Shown piece by piece: positions 3,598-30,904 of a stretch of DNA of 32,093 nt (position 1 is the stretch's first letter; each line of letters starts with the position of its first letter). Origin of the DNA: a virus; the IMG/VR virus record IMGVR_UViG_3300042879_004080, positions 1 through 32,093 of that record. One strand, 5' to 3'. Position numbers and translations under genes: made by a program. The notes beneath the pieces were generated by a model. The model did not search any database. It was given only the letters and a program-made list of their open reading frames with translations, and had not been told where the DNA came from.

Positions 3598-5901
3598 TTA
3601 AACCTCGCTGATTTCGCGCTCCACTTCGGGCACGATGTTCACGCTAAAGGGCTTGGAGCTGTAGACCTTGTCCTGATACACCCACTCGATCTGGCCCACG
3701 GAGGGGATGGCGGAGCTATTGTCGGCCGCGCCGGCGAAGGCCACGAAGCGCTGCAGGGCGTCATTATCGGCCCGGAAATTGATGAGGTAGTAGAAATCCA
3801 GCTCGGCAAAGTTGGCGGCGGTGTAGGCAATGGTCTCGATGAGCACGGCCTGCCGGTTGGTCTTTTCCCTCAGGGTGAACTTTAGCTGGGTGAGCGGCAG
3901 ATTGAGGGACGCGCCGGAAGCGTCGTTAAAGATGACGGCCAGGGTGTGATCGTCCCCCTGCCGGACGGAAATGACGGCGCCGTTGCCGCGGTAGCTGGTG
4001 ACGGCGCGGGTGCGGGCATCGATCTGCACGTCCGTGAGGTCCCAGCGCTGGTCCAGCCAGGCAAACTGCTTGTCCACCACCACGAGCGTCTGGGTGACGG
4101 CGGAGGCGGCGCTGTAGGCGCTGTTGCCCGCCTGAGTGGCGGTGATCAGGGTGATGCCGGCGGAGACGGGGGTGCAGAGGGATCCGCTGATGGTGGCCAC
4201 GCCGGCCACGCTGCTGGCAAAGCTGACGGGCAGGCCGGAACTGGCGGTGGCCACCAGCTGGAAGGAGCCCTCGGCCTTGGCGGTGTTCTGGGCGATGGTC
4301 AGGGCATCGGCAAAGTAGAAATTGGGCGCCGTGCTGGCCGTGATGAGGGCGGCGGCGCGGTTGTAGATGTCCGTCTGGCCGACGACGCGGCGGGGGGTGA
4401 GCTTATCGAAGGAGATGGTCTGGGCGATGGGGGTGTTGACCACGGTGAGGACGCGGTCCACGGTGACGGCGGCGTCGTAGTTGGTGTTGCCGGCCTGAGT
4501 GGCGGAGATGGTGGTGGAGCCGGCCGTCAGCGGGGTGATGCTGCTGCCCGTCACGGTGGCCACGGCGGTGTTGGAGGAGGAAAGGGCCACGGTGAGGTTG
4601 GAGCTGGCGGTGGGAAACACCTGGAAAGCGCCGGAGCCGGCAAACCGTGTGGGCATGCTGGCAAAGGTGATCGTCTGGCTGGCCTTGGAGATGGTGACCA
4701 CGCCGCTGGTGGTGCCGTAGTAAAAATCGCTGAGCACGCTGGCCGTGACCACGTAGGAACCGGCGGTGACGGGGGCGGAAAGGCTGGCGGCCGTGCCGGT
4801 GTAGACGAGCTGGACGGTCAGGCCGGAGGGGGAGACGGTGGTGGTGGGGATCTTAGCCGTGCCGTCGTAGGTGAAGGTGAGGTTGGAAAGGGTGACCGTG
4901 GCCGGGGCGGAGGCGACGGAGTTGCGGATGGTTTGATTGTATTGATCCGCCACAAAAACCACCCCTGCGGAATCCACAGCAACGCCAGCAGGGAAATAAA
5001 ATCTTGCCGCTGAGCCTAATCCATTGTTTGCCCCTATGCTGCGTGCTTGGCCAGCCACTGTAGTTACTACCCCAGCGCTGGTTACTTTTCGGATCGTGTG
5101 ATTGCCTCTGTCAGCCACAAATACATTTCCTGCGGTATCTACGGCAACGTGATAAGGGCCGCTAAATCTGGCCGCAGAGCCAGTGCCGTCAGTGCTGCCA
5201 GTTTGCCCTGGTGACCCGGCCAAAGTGGTCACCACCCCCGCGCTGGTCACCTTGCGGATCGTGCTTTCATAATCTGTCACAAAAACATTTCCTACGGAAT
5301 CTACAGAAACTCCAAAGGGGAAATAAAATCTAGCGGCCGCGCCAGTTCCATCGGTAGATCCAAAAGATCCAGATGTTCCAGCTAGCGTGGTAACTACGCC
5401 AGCACTAGTTACTTTGCGGATAGAATGATTACCGAAGTCCCCCACAAAAACATTTCCAGCTGTATCAACCGAAATGCCAGCAGGCCGGTAAAACCTAGCT
5501 GCAGAGCCAGTACCGTCTGTGCTACCGTAAGAATTGGCTGCACCAGCTAAAGTGGTAACTACGCCAGCACTGGTTACTTTGCGGATGGTGGCGCTTTGTA
5601 AATCCGCCACAAACACATTGCCGGCGGTATCTACGGTAACACCAAAAGGCAAATTAAACCTAGCAGCCGATCCAGTGCCATCGGTGGTTCCGCTGACACC
5701 AGCAGATCCGGCTAAGGTGGTAACTACGCCAGCACTAGTTATTTTACGGATGGCGTGATTGTATTGATCCGCCACAAAAACGTTTCCGGAGGAATCTACA
5801 GCAACGCCAACAGGGTTGTAAAATCTGGCCGCAGAGCCAGTGCCATCGGTGGAACCTCCTGCGCCAACGCCTCCTGCCAGTGTGCCAAAATACAGGCTCA
5901 T
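3598..5901 (-). CDS. NHL beta-propeller / Ig-like tail adhesin, 767 aa
   Basis: Residues 17-327 contain six NHL-type repeats of about 55 residues, each with STDGTGSAARF, P.GV.VD..GNVFVAD and IRKVTSAGVVTTLAG, predicted to form a six-blade beta-propeller. Residues about 335-405 form an MBG-like domain (LTFTYDGTAK...), followed by two Ig-like domains (QTITFASMP..., NTAVATVTGSSI; then QTISFD... and ATQAGNSAYSA). The C-terminus (about 610-767) has a tail-adapter module with VRQGDDHTLAVIF (QGDD 648-651). The architecture suggests virion attachment through the C-terminus and host binding through the propeller. DNA of the propeller is clearly AT-richer than the rest, with the change near 4920-4930, exactly the propeller end. 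Similar NHL/MBG proteins are, from memory, common in Opitutaceae. Confidence 0.85.
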   Translation of the reverse strand: MSLYFGTLAGGVGAGGSTDGTGSAARFYNPVGVAVDSSGNVFVADQYNHAIRKITSAGVVTTLAGSAGVSGTTDGTGSAARFNLPFGVTVDTAGNVFVADLQSATIRKVTSAGVVTTLAGAANSYGSTDGTGSAARFYRPAGISVDTAGNVFVGDFGNHSIRKVTSAGVVTTLAGTSGSFGSTDGTGAAARFYFPFGVSVDSVGNVFVTDYESTIRKVTSAGVVTTLAGSPGQTGSTDGTGSAARFSGPYHVAVDTAGNVFVADRGNHTIRKVTSAGVVTTVAGQARSIGANNGLGSAARFYFPAGVAVDSAGVVFVADQYNQTIRNSVASAPATVTLSNLTFTYDGTAKIPTTTVSPSGLTVQLVYTGTAASLSAPVTAGSYVVTASVLSDFYYGTTSGVVTISKASQTITFASMPTRFAGSGAFQVFPTASSNLTVALSSSNTAVATVTGSSITPLTAGSTTISATQAGNTNYDAAVTVDRVLTVVNTPIAQTISFDKLTPRRVVGQTDIYNRAAALITASTAPNFYFADALTIAQNTAKAEGSFQLVATASSGLPVSFASSVAGVATISGSLCTPVSAGITLITATQAGNSAYSAASAVTQTLVVVDKQFAWLDQRWDLTDVQIDARTRAVTSYRGNGAVISVRQGDDHTLAVIFNDASGASLNLPLTQLKFTLREKTNRQAVLIETIAYTAANFAELDFYYLINFRADNDALQRFVAFAGAADNSSAIPSVGQIEWVYQDKVYSSKPFSVNIVPEVEREISEV

Positions 5902-8255
5902 GTGAACTTCACCTCGATGTCGCCGCCCACCTGGTTGTCCGTGACGCCCGCTAGGCGGTAGCCCACCCAGCCGCGGACGTCCCCGCCCGCCTCGGCAATG
6001 TCAAAGTTGATCAGCCGCGCCCGCAGCACGAAATCCCCGGTGGCGGGCGCGCCTCCGGTGCCGGTGTAGGTGCCGTAAAGATTCTTGTTGGCGGTGACCT
6101 GCACATTGCCGTCCACCAGCCGGCGCAGGATCTGCACGCCGAAGATGTGGGGCGTGAGCGCCTGAGTGAGCAGGACGCGGTGGTCCAGCATGGCGATCTG
6201 GTTGTAATCCGCCGCGGAAAGGTTCAGCCCTTGGTCGGTTGGGCTGCTCACCTGGGCAAGGTTGGCCGCGTCCACCACGATGCGCCACTGGGCGTCCGTG
6301 TCCGCCAGCATCTGCAGGACGAGGCCGAACTGCACCTCCAGCGTGCGGCCCACGCGCAGCTGCTCGCCGTTGACGGGCACGCGGAACAGCTCCACCTCGT
6401 AGGGCACGGGGAACCAGGTGGTCTTACCGTACTCCTGCCGCACCTGATAGATCCGGCCGCCCTCATAGGCCACGGCGCCGCCTGGGGGCACGCTCTGGCC
6501 GGGGATGTAGCCCATGGGCGCCAGCTCCACGCCACCGCTGTACAGCCACACGCCGGCCGCCGTGGGCGCGGTGGCGATCGGGCTGTTTTGGGCGGTCTCG
6601 TGCCGGGCGCGCAGCAGGCTGGGCCCGCGGCGGGGCAGTTTGGCGGCCTCGATCCCTTTCCCGCCCCAGGCGCCGTCCACGTCGGCAAAGAGCACGGCGG
6701 CCCGCTCGGAGACCTTGATGGTCAGCGGCGTGGTGTTTACGGCCGCCTGATTGATGACGCCCACGTTGTTGGGCAGCACGTTTTCCAGATCTCCTAGGCG
6801 GGTGCCCAGGCTGTTGAGCGTGTCCTGGAGGTCGATAATCTGCGCGATGGTGTGGGTGTGGGCCAAGAAAGCGGAGGTGGGCCCGGCGCTGGAGATCATC
6901 ACGGCCCAGCCGGCGGTGGGCACGGTGCCGGTCACCTTGGTGACGGTAATGCTCTGGCTGGTGGCGGTCTGGATGGTGTAGTCGCTCTCGTTGCCCAGCA
7001 GGTAGCCGTTGGAGATGTTTTCCCGCACGGTGACGTGGATGGCCTCCGTGCCCAGGTTGTGCGCCACCGTCCACGGGCCGGCGCCGGTGACGACGGCGGT
7101 GTAGGACTGGATGCCGGTGATGACCTGATCGGTGGTGAAAGGGATGTAGTTGACCGGCTGGGGCGGGTTGAGCCAGTTAATCCTCTGGGCGGCGGCCAAG
7201 CCGGTCCACGCGCCATCGGCCTGCACGGTCATGTTCTGCTGGAACAGGGTGACGTATTTTACATTCGGCGTGGCAATCGTGCCGTAGTTGATGCCCACCT
7301 CGCACGTCAGCGGGTGGGTCACCTCAAAGCTGTCCCGCAGGCTGGCCAGCATGCCCTGGGTGTTCAGATCCAGGTCAAACGTCAGATCGCCCTGCAGGCT
7401 TTCGGGCACCACCACGGTGAGGAGATTTTGCGCCGTCCCGCCAAGGTCGCCGGCAAACTCGATGTCGGCCGTGTTGTTGCGCGGGTTGGTGACGAGGAAG
7501 GTCTCCGCGCTGCCCTTAGTGGTGACGCCAGCGATCAGCGCGGCCTGAATCTCGGCGGCGCCGTCCTCCCGGTCCAGCAGCTGGGTGCGGGCGGTGCCCT
7601 TGTAGATCTGAAAGGCGCCGTCAAACTGGGGCGGCACGTAGAGGCGCTGCACCTCGTTGACCTTCACGCCGGTGGCGGCATCGGAGTAGCCGGTGACCAC
7701 GCGGGTGATGGTGGGCGCGGGCGGGACGATCAGGGAAAACGCGCTGGTGTAGGCCAGCGGGCTCTGCATGGGCCGAAGCTCCTGCACGAACTGGTCCGCG
7801 CGGGAGTAGCTGGTGACGCGGACAAAGCTCTCCGGCTCCAGCCGGTTTTCCGCAATGGTGATGCCGCTGGTGGCGGTCCACGCGGAGGTGCGGGAGACGA
7901 TGTAGCTGTCCCGGTCCAACGCCACCGTCCAGCCGGTGGCCGGGGTGGCCATGGCGTTGAGCACGGCGGCCACGCTGGCGGCGGAAGATCCGATGGTGAC
8001 GACCCCGCTGGTGACGCCGCCCACCACCAGCTTGAAAGTTCCGCTGGTGGGGGCCACGTCGATCGGGCCGTAGGAGAGCCGGGCGTAGGAAAGGGTGGGC
8101 CGGGTGACGACGGTGACGTTGTCGGCCGTCTCGGTCAGCCGCACGACCAGGGCGAAATCGTCCCCCTGCACCACCTTGGGCAGCTCGATCGATCCGGGCT
8201 CGATGCTGTAGCTGGCGGTCTTGGTGGAAAGGTTGCCGAAAAGGAACGTGGCCAT
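5898..8255 (-). CDS. Large tail fibre / baseplate protein, 785 aa
   Basis: Residues 1-40 contain KVVQGDDFALVVRL (QGDD at 30-33), the opening of a beta-sandwich module that recurs in the next two gene products. The middle is long and beta-rich. A segment near the centre reads AFLAHTHTIAQIIDLQDTL followed by GTRLGDLENVL, the His-containing collar and coiled-coil trimer style typical of phage fibres. The C-terminal third (NVQVTANKNLYGTYTGTGG ... FVLRARLINFD) could be a folded tip. It is probably a trimeric fibre or fibre-anchoring protein. The gene has uniformly high GC, unlike the modular neighbours. The stop overlaps the next start (ATGA). Confidence 0.6.
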   Translation of the reverse strand: MATFLFGNLSTKTASYSIEPGSIELPKVVQGDDFALVVRLTETADNVTVVTRPTLSYARLSYGPIDVAPTSGTFKLVVGGVTSGVVTIGSSAASVAAVLNAMATPATGWTVALDRDSYIVSRTSAWTATSGITIAENRLEPESFVRVTSYSRADQFVQELRPMQSPLAYTSAFSLIVPPAPTITRVVTGYSDAATGVKVNEVQRLYVPPQFDGAFQIYKGTARTQLLDREDGAAEIQAALIAGVTTKGSAETFLVTNPRNNTADIEFAGDLGGTAQNLLTVVVPESLQGDLTFDLDLNTQGMLASLRDSFEVTHPLTCEVGINYGTIATPNVKYVTLFQQNMTVQADGAWTGLAAAQRINWLNPPQPVNYIPFTTDQVITGIQSYTAVVTGAGPWTVAHNLGTEAIHVTVRENISNGYLLGNESDYTIQTATSQSITVTKVTGTVPTAGWAVMISSAGPTSAFLAHTHTIAQIIDLQDTLNSLGTRLGDLENVLPNNVGVINQAAVNTTPLTIKVSERAAVLFADVDGAWGGKGIEAAKLPRRGPSLLRARHETAQNSPIATAPTAAGVWLYSGGVELAPMGYIPGQSVPPGGAVAYEGGRIYQVRQEYGKTTWFPVPYEVELFRVPVNGEQLRVGRTLEVQFGLVLQMLADTDAQWRIVVDAANLAQVSSPTDQGLNLSAADYNQIAMLDHRVLLTQALTPHIFGVQILRRLVDGNVQVTANKNLYGTYTGTGGAPATGDFVLRARLINFDIAEAGGDVRGWVGYRLAGVTDNQVGGDIEVKFT

Positions 8256-25373: not shown

Positions 25374-25472
25374 TTAAGGTTTGGGGGTCACACTCAAGAA
25401 ATTGACGGGAGTCGTCGCCACCGCAGGCTGTAGCCAGTTAAAAGATTCCTTACGCATCGCCGTTGTGATCAT
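25374..25472 (-). CDS. Possible 32-aa ORF coupled to the ParB-like gene
   Basis: An ATG overlaps the stop of the ParB-like gene as ATGA and opens a frame starting MITTAMRKESFNWLQP that stops six bases before the terminase small-subunit start. It exactly fills an otherwise empty 101-nt gap, and the ATGA link matches the coupling style of real genes here. It is very short and has no recognisable motif, so it could be chance. Confidence 0.35.
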   Translation of the reverse strand: MITTAMRKESFNWLQPAVATTPVNFLSVTPKP

Positions 25473-26125
25473 GCGCTTATCCTTGCGACAAGCCTCTTGA
25501 TGATGTCGCCAACAGGCTGAAGCTTTGCCAAGCATAGCTTTGCCTTTTCCGCATCCCAGTTCTCTATTGGATCCACCCTAGTAATGCGTTGGTTCCAACG
25601 CTCAATAAGAACGATAAATGCCTCTATGGTGGGCAGGCTTTCGTTGTCGAGCTGCTTCGCCCTAACAATTCCGCCATGGGCTATTGAAAGGCTGAGATCG
25701 TTAGGTGTTAGGTTTTCCGCAATGGCTCGCTTGAGCCAATAATCAGCCTCTTTCTTTGTTATCTTTCCGTTCGCCACCCATTTGTTCACGGCCTCGTGAT
25801 GGGCAAACTCCAGCTCATGCTTCCTTGAGCCATAATAAGCCTCGGCAACGTCCGCAAGCTTCTTTGTTTTGGCGAAATCAAACCAGGTCTGGGTGTCGAA
25901 ATACTCATCGACCTCTTCCTTGAAATGCTTTCTTCCGTAGGCCACCCAGTCGCCGACGCACCATTCCCAGCCGGCCTTAATTCTGCCGAGGTAATTTCCA
26001 ATTTCACACCATTCTGATCGGGTAGTCCCTTCTGGAATCTTTAAGCCAATTTCAGAAAATTGGCATTTTGAGATGATTGCGGGCTGATTGTTTTTGTTTT
26101 GTGGCTGCTGGGTTACGATTTGCAT
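25469..26125 (-). CDS. ParB-like / phage hypothetical DNA-binding protein, 218 aa
   Basis: The central region follows a pattern I recall from phage and bacterial proteins with a ParB-like helical domain: SEWCEIGNYLGRIKAGWEW, then CVGDWVAYGRKHF, a helix with FDFAKTKKLADVAEAY, the hallmark FAHHEAVNKW near residue 110, and a closing unit with LKRAIAENLTPNDLSLSI. Such proteins are thought to bind DNA. The start ATG lies inside the end of the upstream 184-aa gene (13-nt overlap). The gene is AT-richer than its surroundings and probably came with the 184-aa gene as a unit. It could act in regulation or partition; no CTPase motif of classical ParB is visible. Confidence 0.6.
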   Translation of the reverse strand: MQIVTQQPQNKNNQPAIISKCQFSEIGLKIPEGTTRSEWCEIGNYLGRIKAGWEWCVGDWVAYGRKHFKEEVDEYFDTQTWFDFAKTKKLADVAEAYYGSRKHELEFAHHEAVNKWVANGKITKKEADYWLKRAIAENLTPNDLSLSIAHGGIVRAKQLDNESLPTIEAFIVLIERWNQRITRVDPIENWDAEKAKLCLAKLQPVGDIIKRLVARISA

Positions 26126-26667
26126 GTTAGCTCCTTTTTCTTTTTTATTTTTTCACGCCGCCAATGCCGCTCCTCCTGCACTTTTTGATAGGAGGCAACG
26201 GCTGAAGCTGACTTAAAGTTTGCGTTTGTTCTTAAATCCAAAAGGTTTCGAAGGGTTATGGTTTCTTTCGACATGGCGGCAACAGTAAGCTTTATCCCAT
26301 ATTCTTTTATGATTTCCTTAACGGCCTGACGCATGCTCGGTAGTCCGTTAAGCGCCGCAAGGTTGCATGCGTAGGCTAGGCAATAGACCTTAAACTTCAT
26401 CCGCCCCCTCCCGTTTCGGCCTGACAGAATTATGCTGACCACCTTGGAAATGGTTTCTGCATGCGTGTTTTTTATATCTTCATCAATGGCCTCCTTATGC
26501 CATTGAAAGGCCACCTCGGCCGCTTGCCGTGCCTGACCTGTGCTTAATGTCTTAATTTTATGCGATATTCTTTCAGACAAAATATCTACGGGGCCATCAA
26601 GCTCGCTGGCTATGTCGAGCCAATACGACGATTCGTTTGATTCCGCTGGGTCTAGTGTTGTTTTCAT
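26113..26667 (-). CDS. Hypothetical 184-aa protein (possible DNA-binding regulator)
   Basis: The gene starts at ATG 26667 immediately downstream of the repeat array; TGCGGATAG supplies a GGA-type ribosome site eight or so bases upstream. The protein is mainly helical and strongly basic at its C-terminus (HWRREKIKKKKE). A segment near residues 117-140 (MRQAVKEIIKEYGIKLTVAAMSKE) has helix-turn-helix character. The DNA is AT-richer than the packaging and tail genes. I do not recognise the family. Its placement directly behind the repeats makes it a candidate ligand of those sites, as an autoregulator or initiator, but this is inference from position. Confidence 0.6.
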   Translation of the reverse strand: MKTTLDPAESNESSYWLDIASELDGPVDILSERISHKIKTLSTGQARQAAEVAFQWHKEAIDEDIKNTHAETISKVVSIILSGRNGRGRMKFKVYCLAYACNLAALNGLPSMRQAVKEIIKEYGIKLTVAAMSKETITLRNLLDLRTNANFKSASAVASYQKVQEERHWRREKIKKKKELTCKS

Positions 26668-26673
26668 AATTCT

Positions 26674-26798
26674 ATCCGCACTCCACGTTCAATCCGCAGA
26701 AAACATGCAATAATCCGCAAAATCCCCCCATAAAGGGGGGATTTATGCGGATAGAATTGCAGGGTATTTTTGCGGATAGTTTCATAATTTTTGCGGAT
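26674..26798. repeat. Six TGCGGAT repeats arranged symmetrically around a hairpin (possible origin or operator)
   Basis: The gap between the primase-helicase stop and the next start (26668-26801) holds six copies of a 7-mer. Three read ATCCGCA (26674-26680, 26692-26698, 26713-26719) and three read TGCGGAT (26746-26752, 26771-26777, 26792-26798), so the array is inverted around the central hairpin. The extended consensus is TGCGGATWR. Copy 1 and copy 4 match over 13 bases (TGCGGATAGAATT on opposite strands). A 10-bp direct repeat TTTCATAATT occurs at 26662-26671 and 26780-26789. Copy 1 also covers the likely ribosome-binding region of the 184-aa gene, which would suit repression. Iteron-like repeats beside a replication gene also fit a replication origin. 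Confidence 0.75.
26720..26744 (-). terminator. Perfect 10-bp hairpin, terminator-like, at the centre of the repeat array
   Basis: AAATCCCCCC and its exact complement flank a 5-nt loop (ATAAA). With one bulged base the pairing extends through the neighbouring ATCCGCA/TGCGGAT copies to about 17 bp. On the minus strand the stem ends in GGGGGGATTTT, so it could terminate primase-helicase transcription. Its central place in a symmetric repeat array also allows a cruciform or origin role. Confidence 0.6.
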
Positions 26799-26801
26799 AG
26801 G

Positions 26802-28787
26802 TTAAATGTCACTAAAGAGGACATATTTTTTGGCCTTTTCTCGGCCTATATTTTTGATTTTTGGAGGATCGGAAAACTCCCATCCGATTGTGATTTCCGA
26901 CGACTTTCTTTCCCCAATTCCGCACTTGTTTCGTATTAAAGCCTGCAAATCCCCTGCCTTGATGCCCGGGCGTATGGCTTCCCTAAACTGCTCAAAATCG
27001 ACGGCGGAAAGATCCATTCTGGGTCGCCCAGGCTCCCGCTTCTCCGGTTCATCCGACTCAATCCATGCGATCGAATCCGTAGCATGCCTCAAAAACACGC
27101 GAGGAAGGGCCTTGCTGGCCGTGATGCCGGCCTCGGGCTTGCTGGGGACCAATCCGCTGCGCCTGCCCCTTTTAACCACCTCCAAGACGAAATGATCGTT
27201 GTCCTCGCTCTTGACCGCGTTAAGCGTGATGACTGTCCGGGCCCAGTTGGTCAGCTCGCTGGAGCCCAGCCCCCAATACATTTTATCAAATCCTTGATAC
27301 CCGGACGCCGCATCCTTGGGGGGTTTGCCGCTGTGATGGATCAGGCACCAGGCAAACCCATGGCTGTGGCTCACCGGGTTGAGCTCGTTGCGGAGGAACA
27401 CGCTGGCCGTCTCCTGCTTGCTGATGTCCCCTCCTATAAAGGACAGTAGCGGATCCACCCAGAACAGGTCGGGCTTGTGCTTGCTCGCCAAGCGGCGGCA
27501 CAGATCGGCAAACCTTGCACCCGTCGAAAAACTCTCTTGGACGATGATCACGTTCTCAAAAACCAGCTTCCGCTCCTCTTGGCTTAGGGCCATGCGATCG
27601 ATAATGCCCCGGACGGTTTCCGACACGTCCCCGGCGTCATTCTCTGCCTGGACGATGATCGACTTGAGCGGCCGCTTGGGCTTGATTCCAAAAAACTCGC
27701 CCCCATAGGCCCATGTGATGGCGGCCTGCAGGCAAAGGACGGATTTTCCTAGCCCGCTCGATCCGACCCACAAAGCCGATCCTCCCCGGCACAGCCAGCG
27801 GTCTCCTAGGAGGGTCGTCTCATCCTTGGCCTTGTCGAAGGCCAGCATGTCGTCCCACTTGAAGGGCGTGGGCAGGTCTCCGACGATCGTCCACTCCCGC
27901 CAATCCTCAAACGCCTGCACCTCCTCGGCCACCTCGACCAGCTCCTGGCCGTTGCCCGTGCTGCGGCGGATGGCTCCGGGGAGCCGGCTGAACCGAGGGG
28001 CGTCCTTGTTCTGGCCGTCCAGCCCCTTGCAGTTTTCGAGGTGCTTGTAGACAAACTCCGCCCGCTCCTTGAACTCGTCCGCGTTGGCCGCATTGACCAC
28101 CACCCAAGCGTGAAGGCTCTTGCCCCCAGAGCGGATGATGCAGGACGTTGGCAGCTTCGCCTTTTTGATCTGCTCCCACTGCTCCTCGATCGTCCCCTTA
28201 TCAAATTCGACCAGCACGTGGCGAAACTGGTGGATCTCCTCCAGCACGCGCCGGTTGCCCTTGATCGGGTTGATGCAGACGTACACGCCGACCGCGTCCC
28301 CTTGCCACGTGGCCAGCCCGCCGTCCTTGAACAGCTCCAGCCACTCCTCCCGGGTGCGGGTTTCGCCACGGCCGCTGGGCCGCTCCCGCTCGCCGTCCAG
28401 GATGGCGCGGTCGATGTGGATGCGCTCGCTTTGGCGGAAAGCGTGGGCAAGGAAACGGTCGATGGCGTCCTCCTTGGAGGATTGCGGCATGGCCGGAACG
28501 TGCGCCGCTTCCCGGTAGACCGTCATCCCCCGGATCCCGTAGCGGCTGGCCGGCACCCACGGCTCCCGCCCCGGGCGGCTATAGGCGCTTTTCACCGCCG
28601 ACAACGCCTCCCGCTGGGTCAGCCCCACCTTGAGCGCCCAGCTCTCGGCCTCGACCTCCGCGTCCTCGATCGACATGCCTTGGTCGCGGAACTGGCAGGC
28701 GAGTTTGAACAGCTGGTTGTTACGCTCCCCTTCCGGGGCGCCGTTTTCGTAGATTGAGCGGACGGCTGGGGCAAGGGGGATGCTCAT
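26802..28787 (-). CDS. Primase-helicase (AEP-like primase fused to RepA-type AAA ATPase)
   Basis: A 661-aa replication protein. Residues about 20-72 resemble a PriCT-type helical domain (NNQLFKLACQFRDQG...). Residues about 160-300 look like an archaeo-eukaryotic primase core: an acidic motif VLVEFD (E194, D196), the SxH motif in SGGKSLHAW (S224, H226), and RFSRLPGAIR near 265-274. Residues about 330-560 form a RecA/RepA-like ATPase with Walker A GSSGLGKS (342-349) and Walker B LFWVDPL (D445), followed by HHSGKPPKDA. The C-terminus (about 600-661) may be a small winged-helix DNA-binding domain. It should prime and unwind phage DNA. No DNA polymerase is visible, so the phage may use the host polymerase or encode one elsewhere. 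The gene ends three bases before the repeat-rich stretch described separately. Confidence 0.88.
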   Translation of the reverse strand: MSIPLAPAVRSIYENGAPEGERNNQLFKLACQFRDQGMSIEDAEVEAESWALKVGLTQREALSAVKSAYSRPGREPWVPASRYGIRGMTVYREAAHVPAMPQSSKEDAIDRFLAHAFRQSERIHIDRAILDGERERPSGRGETRTREEWLELFKDGGLATWQGDAVGVYVCINPIKGNRRVLEEIHQFRHVLVEFDKGTIEEQWEQIKKAKLPTSCIIRSGGKSLHAWVVVNAANADEFKERAEFVYKHLENCKGLDGQNKDAPRFSRLPGAIRRSTGNGQELVEVAEEVQAFEDWREWTIVGDLPTPFKWDDMLAFDKAKDETTLLGDRWLCRGGSALWVGSSGLGKSVLCLQAAITWAYGGEFFGIKPKRPLKSIIVQAENDAGDVSETVRGIIDRMALSQEERKLVFENVIIVQESFSTGARFADLCRRLASKHKPDLFWVDPLLSFIGGDISKQETASVFLRNELNPVSHSHGFAWCLIHHSGKPPKDAASGYQGFDKMYWGLGSSELTNWARTVITLNAVKSEDNDHFVLEVVKRGRRSGLVPSKPEAGITASKALPRVFLRHATDSIAWIESDEPEKREPGRPRMDLSAVDFEQFREAIRPGIKAGDLQALIRNKCGIGERKSSEITIGWEFSDPPKIKNIGREKAKKYVLFSDI

Positions 28788-28999: not shown

Positions 29000-29139
29000 A
29001 CCCACTGCCCCATTCCGTACCGCCCGCGGTTCTTTTGAATCTGCGCCAGCACGCCGGCCCACTCCTCTGGCGTCCAGGAGGCGATGATGCGGGCGGAGAA
29101 ATCCCGGATGATCATTTCAAGCAGCTCCCTGTCGCTCAT
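28996..29139 (-). CDS. Small hypothetical protein, 47 aa
   Basis: The ORF starts MSDRELLEMIIRDFSARI inside the last codons of the methyltransferase (23-nt overlap), with a GGCGGAAC sequence directly before the ATG. It ends in an ATGA overlap with the following gene, which supports real translation. The sequence is mainly helical with a WTPEEWAGVL segment. No known domain is recognised. It probably belongs to the same early operon. Confidence 0.55.
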   Translation of the reverse strand: MSDRELLEMIIRDFSARIIASWTPEEWAGVLAQIQKNRGRYGMGQWV

Positions 29140-30904
29140 GTTCCGCCTTTGCTATGCGTTTTCCAATCCAAGCCATGCACGGCACGGCCATTGAGTTGCC
29201 TAGAGCCTTGTACCTTGGCCCATCCGGGCATTGATCGGCTGGCTTGCCGCGCCATGGGATCAGCGTGTGGTTGTCGGGAAAGCCTTGGAGTCTTTCACAT
29301 TCCTTCGGGGTCAGCCTGCGGACGGCCATGCGACTGTCTACTGTGGCCACCTGATTATCCCCCATGTCCTTCCGCAACGTGGGGGACATTTCCTCAACAA
29401 ATCTGCTTTCGTTGCCCTCTCTTGAGGCGATGCCAGGCTCAAACGCCACCACCTTCGGCTCCGTATCCCCACCCTTGGTTCCGGCCTTTAGGGTAGGAAC
29501 GACCTTCTGCTCGGTAATTTTTCCAGTTAGGCGAAGCTCGGATTCTTGGAAGGCAATCGTTTCCTGAACCACGGCAGTCCCGCCTTGGTTGCACGCTGGG
29601 TTAAGACCACTAGCAGAATCTAGGGTCTTGCTGGTTTCCTCTCCGACATTTGCATAGAAGCCGCCATTGGGTCTGTCTTTTCTTTTGTTTCCGCCATAAA
29701 TATTTACTGGAACCGCCTCCTGCACCAACGGCACATTGCCACCACCGGTCCCAAACCTTGAAACGCAAGCCGGGGCAACTTCGTGCGGGCCGGTCACGCG
29801 GCTGTCGTTGGGGTGGTTTTCGTAAAGGACGGCGTGCTTGTCGCCCTTGGTAAGAGTCGGGCAAGGATCTCCCGGCTTACCAACGCCAAGGCCGTTTCCC
29901 TTGCCATCCTGCCTGTCTCCACGCTTGCCGGCATTGCGGGTGGCTTGGTCGTGGATGGGGATGGCCTGCACGAGGCCGGATCCACCTTGTGAAAATATCT
30001 CCTGATTGGAAAAACCTATTCCGCCAGATGATTTCAGTGCTTGGCTTAGTGTTGGATGCACGACAGAGCCATCCCAATGTGATTTTTTTTCTGCAACCAA
30101 GTCGGTTGCGTCCTTGTAGTCTCTTGCCTTCATGGCCGATGCTGTTTCGTCATTCATATATTCACCGAATGCCTGCATTCTGAATGCCTGTGACTGCCAT
30201 AATTCTTCCGGTGTAGGCGTCCTGCCCGTTAAGCCCCCCCCCATGTGCGCACCGTCGCTCAAGCAGCCGACTACTTCTCGTTCTGGCAGGCTGACTCCAA
30301 CGCCTTCCTGAGCATCGGCGGCAACTCCTTTCCCCTTTTCTCGGCTCGGCGGAGAATCCCGGCGCACGCTTTCTGACTCAAATAAAACCTTGGCGGCAGC
30401 GGCCCCGTCTCCAAGACATCCGACAACGAACACACGGCGGCGTCGCTGGGCCACTCCGAACCACTGAGCGTCCAAGACCCGGTAGGCCCACCCATACCCC
30501 AGCTCCCCCAGCGCCCCGAGGAAGGAGCCAAAGTCCCTTCCTCCGTTGCTGGACAGAACGCCGGGGACATTTTCCCAGACAATCCATCGAGGTTGAAAAC
30601 GTTGAGCGATTTTAAGGAATGTAAGCATGAGTCCGCCGCGTGGGTCGTCGAGCCCCTTGCGCAGTCCTGCAACACTGAAGGACTGGCAGGGGGTGCCTCC
30701 AACGAGAAGGTCAACTGTTCCGCCTGGTATGTTCCACTGCTCATATTTGTTCATGTCTCCATGGTTGGGAACCTCCGGCCAGTGATGCTTGAGCACCGCG
30801 GCCGGGAATGGTTCGATTTCTGAAAAGGCAACCGGCTCCCAGCCAAGTGGCTCCCAAGCCACGCTGGCGGCCTCGATGCCAGAGCAGACGGAGATGTATT
30901 TCAC
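29117..30904 (-). CDS. DNA (cytosine-5) methyltransferase
   Basis: A 595-aa C5-cytosine methyltransferase with GTG start, overlapping the upstream stop as GTGA. Motif I is SVCSGIEAA (5-13, SAM binding), the catalytic Cys-73 lies in TPCQSFS (motif IV), ENV is at 111-113 (motif VI), QRRRR at 153-157 (motif VIII), and motifs IX-X follow near residues 529-580 ending in GNSMAVP. It would modify cytosines in phage DNA, most likely to evade host restriction. Between motifs VIII and IX lies a variable region of about 350 residues, larger than in standard bacterial enzymes, with degenerate units around PTL...G...AV (for example CPTLTKGDKHAV and VPTLKAGTKGGD). This stretch is AT-richer than the gene ends and should include target recognition. 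No matching restriction endonuclease is seen in the window. Confidence 0.93.
   Translation of the reverse strand: MKYISVCSGIEAASVAWEPLGWEPVAFSEIEPFPAAVLKHHWPEVPNHGDMNKYEQWNIPGGTVDLLVGGTPCQSFSVAGLRKGLDDPRGGLMLTFLKIAQRFQPRWIVWENVPGVLSSNGGRDFGSFLGALGELGYGWAYRVLDAQWFGVAQRRRRVFVVGCLGDGAAAAKVLFESESVRRDSPPSREKGKGVAADAQEGVGVSLPEREVVGCLSDGAHMGGGLTGRTPTPEELWQSQAFRMQAFGEYMNDETASAMKARDYKDATDLVAEKKSHWDGSVVHPTLSQALKSSGGIGFSNQEIFSQGGSGLVQAIPIHDQATRNAGKRGDRQDGKGNGLGVGKPGDPCPTLTKGDKHAVLYENHPNDSRVTGPHEVAPACVSRFGTGGGNVPLVQEAVPVNIYGGNKRKDRPNGGFYANVGEETSKTLDSASGLNPACNQGGTAVVQETIAFQESELRLTGKITEQKVVPTLKAGTKGGDTEPKVVAFEPGIASREGNESRFVEEMSPTLRKDMGDNQVATVDSRMAVRRLTPKECERLQGFPDNHTLIPWRGKPADQCPDGPRYKALGNSMAVPCMAWIGKRIAKAEHERQGAA
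30271..30744 (-). CDS. Overlapping 157-aa reading frame nested in the methyltransferase gene
   Basis: A long ORF read in the +1 frame relative to the methyltransferase codons, beginning MSSGTYQAEQ and ending in LESACQNEK. Its C-terminal half contains CSLSDVLETGPLPPRFYLS followed by KACAGILRRAEKRGKELP. From memory, this FYLS-KACAGILRRAEKRGK-LP pattern is common in small hypothetical phage proteins, some apparently encoded alone rather than inside a methyltransferase. That makes this frame more than an ordinary GC-rich shadow. I see no clear ribosome-binding site, and dual coding is unproven: conservation here could be a by-product of the conserved methyltransferase frame. Function unknown. Confidence 0.35.
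   Translation of the reverse strand: MSSGTYQAEQLTFSLEAPPASPSVLQDCARGSTTHAADSCLHSLKSLNVFNLDGLSGKMSPAFCPATEEGTLAPSSGRWGSWGMGGPTGSWTLSGSEWPSDAAVCSLSDVLETGPLPPRFYLSQKACAGILRRAEKRGKELPPMLRKALESACQNEK

Follow-up and report, generated by a model that had tools for sequence, protein, structure and literature searches.

The 134-bp gap that follows the primase-helicase gene of this phage is very probably its replication origin. The sequence comparisons point to a self-encoded origin of iterons and a hairpin, which would be read by a winged-helix domain at the C-terminus of the adjacent primase-helicase. Four observations support this assignment: the array itself, a layout that is conserved in relatives, the match between iteron type and the C-terminus of the enzyme, and the exchange of cassettes between related phages. 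The winged-helix fold of the C-terminus is predicted from a model.

The iteron array and hairpin

The window, by which we mean the whole stretch of 32,093 bases that was analysed (IMG/VR record IMGVR_UViG_3300042879_004080), has no end repeats. Both of its ends (positions 1 and 32093) align inside a 33-kb relative, G001, with the right end at G001 position 6475; as G001 runs about 6.5 kb further, the window may not cover the complete genome. The window also carries a C5 DNA methyltransferase gene (29117-30904, 595 aa, its two matched parts separated by a long internal stretch) that has no counterpart in G001. The features discussed here are listed below by window coordinates and strand.

25469-26125, minus strand: 218-aa gene, product weakly LmbU-like (NF038070, E 4.4e-16, below the family cut-off)
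26113-26667, minus strand: 184-aa gene, no Pfam match; travels with the window's cassette and is dispensable for the array in other types
26668-26801, no strand: proposed replication origin, iterons plus hairpin; six repeats, layout kept in 84 non-redundant relatives, fold z -8.9
26674-26680, minus strand: iteron 1, TGCGGAT, within the 13 nt preceding the ATG of the 184-aa gene
26692-26698, minus strand: iteron 2, TGCGGAT, from the repeat count
26713-26719, minus strand: iteron 3, TGCGGAT; pairing with iteron 4 can extend the stem
26720-26744, no strand: central hairpin, 10-bp perfect stem and 5-nt loop (TTTAT in the gene direction)
26746-26752, plus strand: iteron 4, TGCGGAT, from the repeat count
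26771-26777, plus strand: iteron 5, TGCGGAT, from the repeat count
26792-26798, plus strand: iteron 6, TGCGGAT, with its end 3 bp beyond the stop codon of the primase-helicase
26802-28787, minus strand: primase-helicase, 661 aa, proposed initiator; AEP-type primase, PriCT_1 region and RepA-like AAA_25 helicase
26802-27020, minus strand: C-terminal winged-helix domain, proposed iteron reader (about the last 70 codons), diverging in step with iteron type

The array fills the gap between the stop codon of the primase-helicase gene and the start of the 184-aa gene, both on the minus strand. ATCCGCA occurs at 26674, 26692 and 26713 and TGCGGAT at 26746, 26771 and 26792, three copies on each side of a perfect 10-bp stem formed by AAATCCCCCC (26720-26729) and GGGGGGATTT (26735-26744) around the loop ATAAA (26730-26734). 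Pairing of repeats 3 and 4 lengthens this stem to 17 bp, with one unpaired A. A first-pass annotation of this DNA had described the six mirrored repeats, the extended stem and their place after the primase-helicase gene, and this observation was confirmed. TGCGGAT has 14 further copies scattered through the record, a point against the origin reading, but six non-overlapping copies of a four-letter 7-mer per 134 bp is the genome maximum, and dinucleotide shuffles gave at most four (0 of 400 reached six). The 8-mer TGCGGATA is found four times in the array and once elsewhere in the record; the sole other copy of TGCGGATAG lies at position 5415. A looser repeat statistic, in which words could overlap or be of low complexity, gave no significant result (six copies were reached in 32 of 200 shuffles), and we therefore relied on the non-overlapping count and the comparative evidence instead of on repeat number alone.

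The GC content of the gap is 42.5%, against 61.5% for the record, with no discrete AT-rich block or melting region defined within it; its centre is formed by an AT loop on a CCCCCC/GGGGGG stem, and not by an AT-rich region of the PICI kind. GC skew shows no turn at the array, which counts against an origin there. Folded as single-stranded DNA, the entire gap forms a single nested stem-loop (z -8.9), and arrays of other iteron types also fold better than all of their shuffles. Among the relatives the stem changes in sequence while its pairing is kept (AGGCTC/GAGCCT, TAGGCC/GGCCTA, TGGGCC/GGCCCA, AGGGCC/GGCCCT and AGGCCC/GGGCCT), around loops of TTTA, TATA or CTTA. In L091 the automatic search chose another stem, and ATTGCCC-TTTAT-GGGCAAT was found by eye at the usual place.

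The primase-helicase and its C-terminal domain

Pfam identified AAA_25 (1.3e-19) and PriCT_1 (2.4e-6) in the window protein, and both are present in 29/29 family members tested; RepB_primase scored only about 0.08, in 5/29. The helicase is thus of the RepA-like AAA_25 class in every member tested and not an SF3 helicase. The full-length structural model is of moderate confidence (mean pLDDT 67.5), and its best fold matches are the AEP domain of S-2L PrimPol (Foldseek, 5.6e-6), the RSF1010 RepB' primase (2.8e-4) and the RSF1010 RepA helicase, which suggest an AEP primase domain joined to a helicase; the predicted helicase fold matches the RepA-type entries 1olo, 1nlf and 1g8y with E values of 5e-5 to 3e-4. 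On these models the enzyme resembles the RepB' primase of plasmid RSF1010 fused to the RSF1010 RepA helicase.

Modelled alone, the C-terminal domain has an AlphaFold pLDDT of 84-88 and a predicted helix-helix-wing arrangement. The model matches the winged-helix DNA-binding domains of SarX (Z 8.1 over 67 residues, 2.1 Å), MecI and BlaI, matches that speak for the fold and not the function, since a domain of this size often gives middling Z values. Neither the C-terminal nor the full-length profile found a useful match among PDB sequences. The presumed recognition helix varies with iteron type, being ERKSSEITIGWE in type A, REKAVKTTGLWE in B, ETKSRDTTKEWE in E and HTKSRDLTAAWE in F. Types A, E and F have CTATC in the repeat and K-S in this helix, a suggestive coincidence that may reflect a link between the two.

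Iteron type follows the C-terminus of the enzyme

Relatives of the primase-helicase taken from IMG/VR gave 84 non-redundant phage loci. The region beyond the stop codon in these relatives again holds a central hairpin flanked by repeats, with the loop centre usually 55-85 nt beyond the stop, and the repeats themselves fall into distinct types: CTATCCGCA (type A, that of the window), GTACGAAAA (B), CTTGAAGG (C), CAGACAAA (D), CTATCGAT (E), CTATCACC (F), CTTGAGGG (G), CTTGGGGG (G') and TGCAGTA/TATTGCA (H). CTATC is common to A, E and F, and CTTG to C, G and G'; the others have nothing in common. The arrays of types C, F and G do not consist of six clean copies in strict mirror order.

Across the 84 arrays, 11 clusters of C-terminal sequences map to nine iteron types with no mismatch, a count for which the iteron words were chosen from those same data, so that the unbiased test is the correlation described below. 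Three related clusters correspond to type C, two related clusters to type H, and the related variants E and F fall together in a single cluster. Over 50 non-redundant loci the similarity of the iterons was correlated (Spearman) most strongly with that of the last 68 residues of the enzyme (0.59), followed by the enzyme core (0.47) and the downstream gene (0.21). The partial rank correlation for the C-terminus, given the core and the downstream gene, was 0.50, a value that 0 of 999 permutations reached. Pairs of these loci with less than 30% identity in the C-terminus shared repeats in 0.9% of cases and those with more than 90% identity in 100%. On the enzyme-core tree iteron type changes 18 times, against a minimum of 8.

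Outside this set, a pattern search for a minimal type-C array gave no match, no relatives were found in bacterial and archaeal genomes with the patterns used, and plasmids gave only weak partial matches. Cultured phages with a distant primase-helicase (about 26% identity), for example Paenibacillus phage Hayley, Faecalibacterium phage Lugh and Streptococcus phage Javan377, likewise carry direct and inverted repeats 3' of the gene.

Exchange of the C-terminal domain together with the array

The enzymes of types A and B are near-identical over about 590 residues and diverge in the last ~65. Between the window (A) and L011-L017 (B) the core is 98-100% identical, the last 68 residues are 41-44% identical and no iteron words are common to the two. 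L057 and L068 have 99% identity in the core, 99% in the downstream protein and 34% in the C-terminus; for L022 and L086 the corresponding values are 94%, 99% and 28%, and neither pair has iteron words in common. At the DNA level both flanks of L057/L068, L060/L079 and L022/L086 are mostly at least 90% identical, and identity falls to chance level only in the exchanged piece, which runs from about -240 to +150-170 bp relative to the primase stop. Several pairs have flanks of about 95% identity and differ only in a cassette of ~400 bp, comprising the winged helix and the array; between the window and L017 the exchanged piece is longer and takes in the 184-aa and 218-aa genes.

The putative recognition domain and the array thus behave as one exchangeable cassette of ~400 bp, such that related phages carry mutually distinct, private origins. 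As the C-terminal codons lie next to the array, the two could be associated partly through joint inheritance and not through binding; repeated exchange between conserved flanks without mismatched pairs argues against this explanation.

The same iteron word in unrelated replication initiators

Viral contigs were scanned for two spaced copies of the window iteron, which also returned three contigs of the primase-helicase family. At least six unrelated contigs contain CTATCCGCA arrays inside genes for replication initiators of the HTH_36/DnaD type (L184:1424-1540, L198:4793-4900, L207:4795-4895, L213:1610-1700, L221:9037-9137 and L224:5768-5868). Four representatives were scanned, and all of them match phage 'replication initiation protein' families (E 1e-19 to 1e-22); two of these six contigs have a DnaB helicase nearby. 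Since these initiators are without the C-terminal domain of the window protein, the CTATCCGCA word seems to have been put to use independently, and its presence in unrelated replication-initiator genes lends independent support to an origin function for the window array. The main false positives of the scan were coding low-complexity repeats (L212, L222 and L223). Over viral and cellular genomes together most two-copy matches look like chance or coding repeats, and the clustered ones include replication-initiator genes.

A similar CTATCCGCA array, judged by sequence only, was seen at L180:5008-5060. Small mirrored arrays of GCGGATAGGTTA and TAACCTATCCGC were also seen in Schaalia/Actinomyces chromosomes, some of them outside obvious replication genes (L230:1140-1230, L260:4330-4420, L282:273-360 and L301:7200-7300).

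Neighbouring genes and alternative functions of the array

The first-pass annotation had left the choice between an origin, a partition site and an operator, and had named the 184-aa, the 218-aa and the primase-helicase proteins as candidate binders. The comparative evidence strongly favours the origin, and the primase-helicase, through its C-terminal winged helix, is the likely binder. The other two proteins are not supported as readers, as arrays persist in relatives with different downstream genes, and near-identical downstream genes lie beside unrelated arrays; in the window's own type A the 184-aa and 218-aa genes are inseparable from the array, so that there they might conceivably act as readers, and relatives of the 184-aa protein were found only within that iteron type. 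The 218-aa protein, which had been described as ParB-like, has its best match in the LmbU regulator family. The gene downstream of the array in other relatives (157-168 aa; for example in L011, L020, L052 and L065) occurs as several divergent variants, shuffled independently of the array, and its product typically starts M-[IM]-DQ-[QE].

The array could instead be an operator only, bound by the winged helix or by a downstream regulator to control transcription or translation, with replication starting elsewhere. Copy 1 is indeed within the 13 nt directly before the ATG of the 184-aa gene, where the earlier annotation had placed it, the 161-168-aa downstream gene of relatives has a helix-turn-helix-like stretch, and the 218-aa product resembles LmbU regulators. 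However, one and the same array is found with freely exchanged downstream genes, and near-identical downstream proteins stand beside unrelated arrays, the ground on which we rejected the downstream helix-turn-helix protein as the reader; the promoter scan gave a single weak promoter-like site, at chance level; and a single regulatory site would not need mirrored triple sets and a hairpin maintained by compensating changes. We consider an operator-only role unlikely, and repression through copy 1 possible as a second effect of an origin. The strong stem-loop might also suggest a transcription terminator or RNA element, with the repeats as by-products of a long RNA stem, but this is very improbable: the terminator scan made no call and there is no T-run after the hairpin, an Rfam scan of the array gave no match at a meaningful score, and the iteron words are wholly replaced between types and occur as direct copies on each side, neither of which a stem alone would need.

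The terminase genes are downstream of the array, and the small terminase, encoded about 1.3 kb from it, might read the array as a packaging (pac) site. The 159-aa protein at the small-terminase position is nevertheless identical in L009 (type A) and L013 (type B), whose arrays share nothing, and the array tracks the primase C-terminus instead; the small terminase was therefore rejected as the reader, and we regard a pac site as extremely unlikely. Clustered inverted repeats would be compatible with a centromere-like partition site too, but the repeats follow the primase-helicase domain, the neighbouring proteins tested gave no ParA or ParB match and nothing near the array was recognised as a partition gene, so that we give this reading scarcely any weight. 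It is formally possible that a distal gene encodes the reader. The phages concerned are all uncultured and mostly known from fragments.

Comparison with known origins and a model for initiation

The window has a cluster of short repeats beside the gene for its proposed initiator, as iteron origins do. In SaPIs and SCCmec elements (PMC7581432) and in PICIs (PMC6092414) the origin lies just downstream of the initiator gene and the Rep C-terminus reads the iterons. The window shares with the SaPI/PICI rep-ori modules, in layout only, a proposed origin directly 3' of the initiator gene and two iteron sets around a central region. It differs in that PICI origins flank an AT-rich region, in place of which we find a hairpin, and in its proposed initiator, which joins an AEP primase to a RepA-like helicase, in a tailed phage. 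The Sulfolobus plasmid pRN1 offers a second parallel, as its ORF904 protein combines an AEP primase, a helicase and a C-terminal winged helix, and an essential stem-loop, variable in sequence between relatives, starts 54 bp past the rep gene (PMC4234260); the window has the same succession of C-terminal winged helix, as modelled, and downstream stem-loop. ORF904, in contrast, has an SF3 helicase and pRN1, according to that paper, no iteron structure, whereas the phage has iterons and a RepA-like helicase. A related initiation scheme has been proposed for pRN1 and phage BIP-1 (PMC4234260).

RSF1010 (IncQ) has an AEP primase (RepB'), the RepA helicase, iterons and ssi hairpins (PMC4234260, PMC4538821). 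Its functions are divided among three separate proteins, with RepC as the iteron binder, whereas in the phage a single chain is encoded, the domain that matches the iterons is part of the primase-helicase and not a separate RepC-type binder, and the iterons are mirrored around one hairpin. The helicase of the phage P4 alpha protein belongs to a different class. Alpha is likewise a primase-helicase whose winged-helix domain binds origin repeats, but its primase is of the bacterial (TOPRIM) type (PMC4234260). In the PLE satellites of Vibrio the origin and the DNA-binding domain are exchanged together, an exchange that an origin-directed nuclease may drive, and their cognate pairing has been shown experimentally (PMC8263062); the initiator there is RepA_N and there are two replicon modules, compared with nine iteron types here. 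Lambda-O-like initiators also couple a phage iteron origin to the initiator gene, and CTATCCGCA occurs in some HTH_36 initiator genes, but their iterons lie inside the gene, and helicase and loader are separate proteins. Initiator-iteron pairs that change together are therefore already known (SaPI/PICI, P4, PLE and lambda), as is the stem-loop origin beside the pRN1 rep gene; what appears new is this type of primase-helicase, the arrangement of inverted iterons around a hairpin, and how widely the cassette is exchanged in nature.

In the model that we favour for the window origin, the C-terminal winged helix would bind the six iterons beside its own gene, as the covariation of the two suggests. 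The symmetry of the array suggests that its two inverted sets of three iterons may position two helicase rings facing apart. If it acts like the ssi hairpins of RSF1010 and the stem-loop of pRN1, the central hairpin might aid opening of the duplex or provide the start site for the primase, and forks would then leave the array in both directions.

Implications

These results predict an origin and its initiator for a widespread group of uncultured phages, in which one polypeptide would carry the functions that RSF1010 divides among three. With nine domain/site pairs in one scaffold, several of them within near-identical flanks, the code by which winged helices would read these sites, and the forces behind the exchange, become directly testable. 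It is conceivable, although we advance the idea tentatively and think it rather less than probable, that the cassette of winged helix and array is a module of origin identity, selected to differ between co-infecting phages and parasites. If so, cassette exchange would be an escape from origin competition, decoys, satellites or origin-targeting nucleases, and origin type would act as a determinant of phage-phage compatibility in this uncultured group, much as incompatibility does among plasmids.
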